Origin: Propionibacteriaceae bacterium
Lineage (GTDB): Bacteria; Actinomycetota; Actinomycetes; Propionibacteriales; Propionibacteriaceae
DNA: 64,000 nucleotides
Assembly: GCA_027492675.1 (NCBI GenBank)
Contig: JAPUEI010000086.1
Span: 1 to 64,000 of the forward strand
Direction: 5' to 3'
The notes under the pieces are model-generated. The model did no database searches, was not told the origin of the DNA, and saw nothing but the letters and a program-made list of their open reading frames with translations. The translations under genes and the position numbers were made by a program. Shown piece by piece: positions 43,312 to 47,122 of this stretch. Numbering within the stretch: position 1 is the stretch's first letter; every line of letters starts with the position of its first letter.

Positions 43312-43353
43312 GAAGGGCCCGCAAACGAGTATGAGTCGTTCGTCGGGCCCTTC
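43312..43353. repeat. Duplicated hairpin element, copy 1 (hairpin)
   Basis: GAAGGGCCCG (43312-43321) pairs with CGGGCCCTTC (43344-43353). Inside, AACGA (43324-43328) pairs with TCGTT (43336-43340) around the loop GTATGAG. Seventeen bases around the loop (CGAGTATGAGTCGTTCG) are identical in copy 2, 365 bp away. Further shared sequence follows each hairpin: CCCTTGCGGG at 43478 and 43839, then an AT-rich ATTTNTA stretch. The whole element is about 330 bp. I find no convincing gene in 43107-44004. Confidence 0.85.
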
Positions 43354-43572
43354 TGTTCGGCCGGCCTGGTGGCTGCCATGCCGACAACTCGCTTTCCCGA
43401 CCAGCCCCGCACCCACCGTGCGGCTCCTCGGACCGAAGTCCTCAGCACCAGTCGTTCTGTCGTGTTGCCCCGCTTCCCCCTTGCGGGTTCCGCGTAAGAG
43501 ATTTATATCGCCCCCGAGAAGCGCTGCGCAAGTAAATCGCACGAATTACATCCCTGGAATTTGAACGGATAT

Positions 43573-43636
43573 TTGTGCACCGAGTATCGGATGTTGTGCA
43601 CCATTTATCCACCGAATATCCACAGAGTTGTACACA
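43573..43636 (+). other. DnaA-box-like cluster, copy 1 (five nonamers)
   Basis: All of these are on the plus strand and close to the consensus TT(G/A)TCCACA: TTGTGCACC at 43573 and 43594, TTATCCACC at 43605, ATATCCACA at 43616, TTGTACACA at 43628. The region is noticeably more AT-rich than the rest of the window. No dnaA, dnaN, parAB or rpmH gene is near, so this is not a standard oriC context. Calling them DnaA sites is inference from the nonamers. Confidence 0.5.
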
Positions 43637-43675
43637 TGCCGGCGAGGGTCGAGCGAAGGCGTGGGGAGGGCATGC

Positions 43676-43718
43676 GAAAGGGCCCGCGAGCGAGTATGAG
43701 TCGTTCGACGGGCCCTTC
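43676..43718. repeat. Duplicated hairpin element, copy 2 (hairpin)
   Basis: AAGGGCCCG (43678-43686) pairs with CGGGCCCTT (43709-43717), with the same CGAGTATGAGTCGTTCG core as copy 1 (loop GTATGAG at 43694-43700). Copy 2 continues through CCCTTGCGGG at 43839 and GATATTTCTACCC at about 43859 to the nonamers at 43923-43998. The copies are well diverged outside these blocks, so the duplication is not recent. Confidence 0.85.
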
Positions 43719-43922
43719 CAGGTGACCGCGCGATGGTGCACAGCCGGTGGCCAGTCTCCCTGCCCCCACGGCCCACCATCGAGCGGCGCGACGGGCGAAC
43801 CCGCCGTACGGAGCAATTCCTCTGTCCTCCATCACATTCCCTTGCGGGCTTGCGATGGGATATTTCTACCCGTCCTCAAACGCCTCGTCAAGCCGTTTCG
43901 GGAACTTTTTCGAAGCACTTAC

Positions 43923-43998
43923 TTATCCACCGTCTGCCTCGCTGAGAAGCCGGAAATACTCACACCCTGTCCACATACCGTGCACCGATTCGTCCACA
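43923..43998 (+). other. DnaA-box-like cluster, copy 2 (three nonamers)
   Basis: TTATCCACC at 43923, CTGTCCACA at 43967 and TCGTCCACA at 43990 each differ by one base from TT(G/A)TCCACA and share the orientation of the copy 1 set. The last lies seven bases from the stop of the ferredoxin reductase gene (minus strand, 44005). Confidence 0.5.
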
Positions 43999-44004
43999 GG
44001 TGCC

Positions 44005-45418: not shown

Positions 45419-45760
45419 CTAGGCCGGTTGCCGCGCGCCGTCGAGGAGGGCGGCGAGCTCGGCGAGCGCCTCGTGGCGCGCCCAGTAGTAGACGAAGGTC
45501 CCTCGCCGTTCGCAGTCGACCAGGCCCGCCTCACGCAGTGTCTTCAGGTGATGCGAGATGGTGGCCGATGACAGGGTGAACGCCGGGGCGATCTCGCACA
45601 CGCAGAGCTCGGGTACGGCCGCGATCATGGCTGCCATCCGCAGCCGCGCCGGGTCTCCGAGCGCCTTGAACATGCCGGCCATACGGTCGGTCTCCTGCGA
45701 CGCCTCCGCATCAGGTAGGCGGCTCGCGGGGGCCGCGCAACACGTTGAGGCATCGTTCAT
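45419..45760 (-). CDS. arsR: ArsR/SmtB-family arsenite-responsive repressor
   Basis: The 113-aa winged-helix repressor has a metal site Cys53-Val-Cys55 in ELCVCEI, the classic alpha-3 arsenic sensor motif. Extra cysteines occur at the N terminus (STCCAAP) and in the late VDCERRG, one of which may supply a third ligand. The recognition helix is SSATISHHLKTLREAGLV. It is divergent from arsM, and the gap holds a 9-bp inverted repeat. Arsenite binding should release it and turn on arsM-arsC. Confidence 0.92.
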   Translation of the reverse strand: MNDASTCCAAPASRLPDAEASQETDRMAGMFKALGDPARLRMAAMIAAVPELCVCEIAPAFTLSSATISHHLKTLREAGLVDCERRGTFVYYWARHEALAELAALLDGARQPA

Positions 45761-45780
45761 GGGTCCTATCTTGACAGATG

Positions 45781-45817
45781 TCGAATCAAGCGGCCAGGCT
45801 ATGGATCGTTGATTCGA
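45781..45817. promoter_or_regulatory. Likely ArsR operator
   Basis: TCGAATCAA (45781-45789) and TTGATTCGA (45809-45817) form a perfect 9-bp inverted repeat with a 19-base spacer, between the arsR start and the arsM start. ATCAA/TTGAT half-sites are typical of ArsR operators. Confidence 0.82.
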
Positions 45818-45841
45818 TGACCATCGATACAAGGAGAGCGA

Positions 45842-46711
45842 ATGACCACCGAACCGTCGATCCTCGAGGTCGTAGCCCAGCGGTACGGAGCGGCCGCCCG
45901 GACACAGCTGCAGCTGTTGGACACCTCCGCGTCGAGCTGCTGCGGTGGCGGCGGATGCTGTGGGGAGTCGGCCAAGACGGCGACCATCAACGCCGTCGAC
46001 CCGATCTCCCGTGATCTGTACGACCCGGACACTCCCTTCGACGCGGCGCTCGCCGCCTCACTGGGATGTGGCAACCCGACCGCGCTGGCTGAGCTCCACC
46101 CCGGCGAGGTCGTCCTGGACCTGGGCTCCGGCGGAGGGCTCGACGTCCTGCTCTCTGCGCGCCGCGTCTCGCCCGACGGCCACGCGTACGGCCTCGACAT
46201 GACCGACGACATGCTGGCGCTGGCCCGCCGCAACCAGGCCGACTCCGGGGTCACCAACGCCACCTTCCTCAAGGGCCAGATCGAGTCCGTACCCCTGCCT
46301 GACGCCTCCGTCGACGTGGTCATCTCCAACTGCGTGATCAACCTGTCGCCGGACAAGGACGCCGTGCTGAGCGAGGCGTTCCGCGTACTCCGTCCGGGCG
46401 GCCGGTTCGCCGTCTCTGACATCGTGCTGCTCCGCGACATCCCCGAGGCGCTCCGCGGCGTCATGGCCCTGTGGACCGGCTGCATCTCCGGGGCGCTGCG
46501 CGACAGCGACTACCTCGACCGGCTCAGCAGCGCCGGGTTCGACGACCCGAGCATCCAGATCACCCGTACGTACCGGCGGGGCGAGCTCGACGAGCTCGCG
46601 GGATCGCTCGAGCCCGCCCAGCTGCCCGTCGGCATGACGATGGCCGAGGCCGTCGACGCTCTCGATGGCGCGTTCGCCAGCGGTTTCGTCCGCGCCACCA
46701 AGCCCGCCTGA
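45842..46711 (+). CDS. arsM: Arsenite S-adenosylmethionine methyltransferase
   Basis: ArsM methylates As(III), giving methylated and partly volatile arsenicals. The 289-aa protein has motif I VLDLGSGGGLDVL (about 90-102) and conserved cysteines: the N-terminal CCGGGGCCG cluster (about 34-42), the Cys in SNCVINL, and the Cys in WTGCISGAL. These thiols bind arsenite in the family. AAGGAGAGCG precedes the ATG. It is the first gene after the ArsR operator and 12 bases before arsC. Confidence 0.93.
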   Translation: MTTEPSILEVVAQRYGAAARTQLQLLDTSASSCCGGGGCCGESAKTATINAVDPISRDLYDPDTPFDAALAASLGCGNPTALAELHPGEVVLDLGSGGGLDVLLSARRVSPDGHAYGLDMTDDMLALARRNQADSGVTNATFLKGQIESVPLPDASVDVVISNCVINLSPDKDAVLSEAFRVLRPGGRFAVSDIVLLRDIPEALRGVMALWTGCISGALRDSDYLDRLSSAGFDDPSIQITRTYRRGELDELAGSLEPAQLPVGMTMAEAVDALDGAFASGFVRATKPA

Positions 46712-46723
46712 AAGGACAGCTCC

Positions 46724-47122
46724 ATGCTCAAGCCATCCATCCTCTTCGTCTGCATCCACAACGCGGGGCGGTCCCAGATGGCGGCCGCCTACGCCCACCA
46801 CCTGTCGGGAGGGGCCGTCGAGGTCCGCTCGGCAGGGTCGGCGCCGGCGGACTCCATCAACCCCGCCGTACGGGAGGTCATGCTCGAAGAGGGCATCGAC
46901 ATCTCCGGGGAGAAGCCCAAGATCCTCACGCCCGACGCCGTACAGGCCTCTGATGTGGTCGTGACCATGGGCTGTGGCGACACCTGTCCGTACTATCCGG
47001 GGAAGCGTTACGAGGACTGGACGCTCGACGATCCGGCCGGTCAGGGGGTCGACGCCATCCGCCCGATCCGGGACGAGATCAAGGCCCGGGTGCAGTCGTT
47101 GGTCGATGAGCTGCTCGGGTGA
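46724..47122 (+). CDS. arsC: Arsenate reductase, low-molecular-weight phosphatase type
   Basis: The 132-aa enzyme has the P-loop CX5R as Cys10-IHNAGR-Ser17 and two further redox cysteines, Cys84 and Cys88 (MGCGDTCPYYPGK). It should reduce As(V) to As(III) with thioredoxin or mycothiol/mycoredoxin as partner. AAAGGACAGCTCC lies before the ATG. With arsM it forms a reduce-then-methylate pair. No arsB or acr3 pump is next to it. Confidence 0.92.
   Translation: MLKPSILFVCIHNAGRSQMAAAYAHHLSGGAVEVRSAGSAPADSINPAVREVMLEEGIDISGEKPKILTPDAVQASDVVVTMGCGDTCPYYPGKRYEDWTLDDPAGQGVDAIRPIRDEIKARVQSLVDELLG

Follow-up and report, generated by a model that had tools for sequence, protein, structure and literature searches.

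A duplicated element was analyzed in a 64,000-nt stretch of DNA (the window) from a Propionibacteriaceae bacterium (GenBank assembly GCA_027492675.1, contig JAPUEI010000086.1, positions 1 to 64,000). The element, at 43,312 to 43,998, probably consists of two tandem copies of one new actinobacterial gene for a small structured RNA, read from the minus strand, each with a row of phased DnaA-box-like nonamers before its promoter. The anatomy of the genes, their spread, the enrichment and phasing of the boxes, the covariation of the stem and the conservation of the loop were established by computation, and the predicted RNAs are very probably transcribed. An initial annotation had proposed a DnaA titration or reactivation site or the origin of an integrated element, and had listed a structured RNA pair last; our results bear out that last option, which is better supported than the other two.

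Anatomy of the duplicated element

Each unit runs on the minus strand from the phased nonamers through a promoter and a structured RNA of approximately 185 nt to a GGGCCC hairpin, the predicted terminator (Table 1). In agreement with the duplication described initially, the hairpin at 43313-43353 recurs 365 bp further on, at 43678-43718, with 93% identity. The hairpin pattern had 0 matches in 100 shuffles of the window, and the exact loop core occurs genome-wide at these two hairpins only. All eight nonamers of the initial annotation were found again, and a ninth, CCGTGCACC, was identified at 43978-43986. Both strands of 43501-44004 together contain 11 sites with at most 1 mismatch to TTRTNCACM, whereas 1000 shuffles averaged 0.94 and never exceeded 6; the annotation, which was to be given up if nonamers were no denser than in shuffled sequence, therefore passed its own test. 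Nonamers of unit A are spaced 12-11-11-21, the same as in relatives, and the run of three sites phased at 11 bp is unique to this locus genome-wide. The region is also AT-richer, as had been noted, with a GC content of 0.60 over 43313-44004 and of 0.46 and 0.53 in the two box blocks versus 0.70 for the window.

The promoter form common to 51 members of the RNA family was CTTGnn-N16-18-TAnAAnT; a strict sigma-70 scan detected neither promoter A nor promoter B. RNA B folded far better than its own shuffles (z -5.57), and RNA A moderately better (z -2.66). As in known small RNA genes, a promoter and an intrinsic terminator enclose a conserved, covarying structure, and no open reading frame is conserved.

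Conservation of the RNA and its terminal loop

In the terminator, the 7-nt loop CUCAUAC is nearly invariant. The stem around it varies with compensation, and retention of the loop while the stem changes in this way points to the loop as a functional part. Two resemblances of the loop were noted: it fits the YUNR U-turn (CUCA), a motif of antisense RNA loops, and it is like the loop of a CAU anticodon. At the 5' end is P1, a two-tier hairpin with a tetraloop cap that varies between members; of the 51 members, 34 formed P1 with 7 bp or more, versus 17% of shuffles. The middle part of the RNA is variable between members. Helix III was paired in 89.6% of cells, versus at most 71% in slid registers and at most 86.7% with arms permuted within groups, a control that is lenient because the sequences are related and that retains a register that, for two groups of alignment A4, had been picked by eye; that choice favours the structure and has to be counted against our reading. 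Changes on both sides of helix III were G-C/A-U, A-U/G-C and U-A/C-G. A pseudoknot before the terminator appeared conserved by eye and was rejected, as its best-scoring version was no better than shuffles (median p 0.46).

A search with the exact loop core matched Propionibacteriaceae/Propionibacteriales assemblies, three of which carry both copies, and a DNA search of the bacterial family found the element in every sampled genome of the genus (7 of 7). With a covariance model for the terminator and a loop-in-stem pattern, the RNA was traced in 14 or more families of the class; the pattern was present in 40 of 395 class genomes, with 47 matches versus 5 for the reversed control. Weaker terminator-model matches without the CUCAUAC loop were excluded from membership because GGGCCC terminators are common. 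The patterns and filters were strict, and a genome without a match may still carry the gene. A search for the promoter only (CTTG-N-TAGAA-N-TCYYACG), which did not include the loop, matched 20 genomes and returned mostly the same genes; its new loci (L215, L216, L219, L220 and L231) also ended in hairpins with the loop CUCAUAC, some with different closing pairs. At L233, 600 bp contained no loop hairpin; the matches at L221, L222 and L234 appear to be due to chance.

Copies of the gene are found at unrelated loci, with flanking genes that vary between carriers. A genome of another genus (G304) has a single unit beside recO that retains the promoter, the terminator loop and the phased boxes; as the boxes are retained despite different neighbours, they are part of the RNA gene, not of the locus. 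A second duplication, independent of the first, is present in genus g6, where the two copies are convergent. Length also differs among carriers. At L119, L120, L122, L219 and L089, long forms reach approximately 400-475 nt, and their middle part holds numerous small hairpins of the GGNAACC type; short forms elsewhere are approximately 190 nt. Separately, at L087 (G290:C167, upstream of position 1516), a CUCAUAC-loop hairpin comes after a long stretch with structure that, by eye, resembles a group II intron or similar RNA more than a member of this family.

DnaA-like box arrays and their possible regulator

Boxes were counted over 200 bp before each of 51 promoters, several of which come from close relatives, so that not all are independent. 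There were 107 in the sense orientation, where shuffles gave 11.1 on average and 21 at most, and the opposite strand had 28. Spacings between box pairs peaked at 11-12, 21-23, 32-34 and 44 bp, and positions relative to the -35 element were approximately -40, -51, -74, -84, -95, -105 and -116. Regions behind dnaA in 23 genomes share words with the arrays, such as TGTGGACAA, TGTGGATGA and TGTGCACAA. A survey of TCCACA clusters covered 1.2 Mb of the chromosome of G075 (38%). The two densest there were the array, with 6 sites starting at 1733310, and oriC, with 5 starting at 1734; the clusters that followed had 3 sites, and no phased array other than that of the RNA gene was found. This survey offers the best evidence, drawn from sequence, for a role of DnaA at the arrays.

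The DnaA link drawn by the initial annotation stands in part: the nonamers greatly exceed chance and share their words with the oriC boxes of the clade, but they are tied to an RNA-gene promoter, which speaks against a fixed titration or reactivation site. Such a site, with incidental hairpins, would account for dense DnaA-like boxes away from dnaA, and datA and DARS of Escherichia coli are indeed noncoding clusters of DnaA boxes (PMC4585315). We consider it unlikely, however, since the stems of the RNA covary and its loop is conserved, and since the boxes are phased to the promoter and move with the RNA gene. Nor is the place relative to oriC stable. In the genome of the window, dnaA is on a different contig with its own oriC at dnaA-dnaN, which agrees with the earlier statement that the element is away from any dnaA gene. 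In six single-contig relatives, no constant distance from the RNA gene to dnaA was seen (as fractions of the genome, approximately 0.05 in G346 and G211, 0.32 in G011, 0.40 in G304 and 0.45-0.46 in G075 and G105). Boxes that are tied to a promoter and travel with its RNA gene to unrelated places argue against both a locus-fixed site and the origin of an integrated element.

On the minus strand, the locus reads Pyr_redox_2 (ferredoxin-reductase-like) gene, RNA B, RNA A and SPFH gene, by domain assignments. The SPFH gene shares the strand of RNA A and begins approximately 135 bp beyond terminator A, which would suit a leader or riboswitch of that gene, just as the AT-rich stretch with boxes would suit an origin. 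Either is very improbable: the annotated neighbours are ordinary chromosomal genes, oriC has its place at dnaA-dnaN, and the downstream gene differs in other genera. Viral contigs gave 20 matches to the hairpin pattern, none with the promoter and most without the stem.

Further observations weigh against the reading as two RNA genes with promoter arrays. L218, a plausible member from the promoter-only search, has a different loop. CUCAUAC-loop hairpins were also found directly 3' of an adenosine-deaminase-like gene, without the small-RNA promoter, at L158 (G011:C1, approximately 3090600) and L142 (G029:C2, approximately 5100); the loop may also serve there as a plain terminator loop, or may have been copied there. 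Clear oriC boxes of the window's own genus are constant at position 5, where array A is variable. In genus g6 (L077-L083 and L092-L096), the boxes of both convergent copies are replaced by another direct repeat of 11 bp, GACACGCCGAC GACACGCCGAG. The same RNA genes could have arrays bound by another head-to-tail regulator with an 11-bp period, such as an OmpR/PhoB-type response regulator, with DnaA uninvolved. Direct repeats of 11 bp at a fixed distance from a promoter suit such regulators, array A differs from native oriC boxes at position 9 as well as 5, and g6 exchanges the word yet retains the phase. The words nevertheless match the oriC boxes of the class, and a single hexamer has its two densest clusters in G075 at the array and at oriC. 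We give this alternative a probability somewhat short of even, and DnaA as the regulator of the RNA promoters about an even chance.

In the mechanism that we propose, each RNA copy would be transcribed from its own primary-sigma-type promoter, and DnaA, or a factor of like specificity, would most likely bind head-to-tail to the helically phased row, which lies upstream of the -35 element at distances of approximately 40 to 116 bp, and thereby set transcription. The RNA would comprise the 5' tetraloop hairpin, the variable middle, covarying helix III and the intrinsic terminator, whose near-invariant loop CUCAUAC (a YUNR U-turn) probably contacts a target RNA or protein. That the loop acts in trans is a balanced proposition; its complement, GUAUGAG, is possibly a pairing site at translation starts. 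The full proposal, which we advance tentatively, is of a class-wide RNA absent from Rfam whose promoter is under direct control of a DnaA row, so that the state of replication initiation would be coupled to post-transcriptional control through CUCAUAC.

Table 1. Positions of the predicted features in the window
Feature	Position	Strand	Details
Predicted small RNA A	43312..43500	-	start ~43500, end = terminator; from promoter/terminator placement and conservation in five relatives
Terminator hairpin of RNA A	43312..43354	-	loop CUCAUAC at 43329-43335
5' hairpin P1 of RNA A	43471..43494	-	GCAA tetraloop
Helix III of RNA A	43368..43417	-	arms GGTGG near 43413-43417 and CCACC near 43368-43372; covariation in family alignment
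Promoter A	43501..43531	-	TTGCGC (43526-43531), 18 nt, TATAAAT (43501-43507)
Conserved block upstream of promoter A	43543..43561	-	AATTCCAGGGATGTAATTC; kept in all unit-A relatives
Array A, five DnaA-box-like nonamers	43573..43636	+	43573, 43594, 43605, 43616, 43628
Predicted small RNA B	43676..43861	-	start ~43861-43855, end = terminator
Terminator hairpin of RNA B	43676..43718	-	loop CUCAUAC at 43694-43700
5' hairpin P1 of RNA B	43830..43857	-	GCAA tetraloop
Helix III of RNA B	43731..43781	-	arms 43774-43781 and 43731-43738
Promoter B	43862..43891	-	TTGACG (43886-43891), 17 nt, TAGAAAT (43862-43868)
Array B, DnaA-box-like nonamers	43923..43998	+	43923, 43967, 43978, 43990

Elsewhere in the window, 45419-47122 holds an arsenic-like cluster of an ArsR-like regulator, an ArsM-like methyltransferase and a low-molecular-weight phosphatase/ArsC-like protein; domains support the last two.

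Significance and comparison with known systems

To our knowledge, few small RNAs conserved across actinobacteria are known, and hardly any that are linked to the cell cycle. The predicted RNA family, which is spread over many actinobacteria, is new to the Rfam catalogue, and the row of DnaA-like sites before each promoter suggests that production of the RNA is tied to DnaA. An RNA with a near-invariant loop in many families, together with a DnaA-like cluster that, in the relative examined, is denser than any other outside oriC, would provide a testable link between the initiator and gene control. A cluster of DnaA boxes far from oriC, moreover, can be a promoter array and not a titration site.

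Covariance models of Rfam 15, 6S RNA included, gave nothing above the gathering score over the element, either in the window or in 18 relatives, and only chance-level matches at a relaxed E-value. The plasmid antisense RNA ctRNA_p42d matched the terminator weakly (E 0.48, below the family threshold) and was not used as evidence. No description of this RNA or of its CUCAUAC loop was found in the literature, a weak sign of novelty given that subscription journals were mostly outside the search.

OmrA and OmrB are tandem sister small RNAs, adjacent copies with common ends and diverged middles. The pair in the window has the same layout, but its RNAs share the terminator loop as the proposed contact site, and the family is actinobacterial. 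Antisense RNAs with YUNR loops (such as RNAII of pMV158, PMC4485353) are similar in the 7-nt loop that fits YUNR; the loop in the window, in contrast, is conserved class-wide at many loci, and no complementary RNA is encoded opposite. In comparison to datA and DARS, which are also characterised by DnaA-ATP hydrolysis or reactivation of ADP-DnaA, the window likewise has dense DnaA-like nonamers clustered far from dnaA, whereas its boxes lie before a promoter, keep a fixed helical phase to it and accompany the RNA gene when that moves.

Ms1 RNA (MTS2823, scr3559; PMC9130861, PMC4191392) is widespread in actinobacteria, binds the core RNA polymerase and can be identified from its synteny with a HAD hydrolase gene (PMC9130861). 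Identity with Ms1 was rejected by location, the HAD-IB genes of eight carriers being elsewhere, with no loop hairpin within 1.5 kb. Both are widespread structured small RNAs of a similar size range with their own sigma-A-like promoter and terminator; however, Ms1 adjoins the HAD hydrolase gene and contains a bubble like that of 6S RNA, whereas the RNA of the window has no fixed neighbours, separate hairpins and an invariant terminator loop. CoRP RNA of Corynebacterium (PMC11077062) is likewise a structured, abundant actinobacterial RNA that went unrecognised until recently. In contrast to CoRP, which is 516 nt long, flanked by tRNA genes and has close homologues in Corynebacterium only, the RNA of the window is approximately 185 nt and extends over many families.
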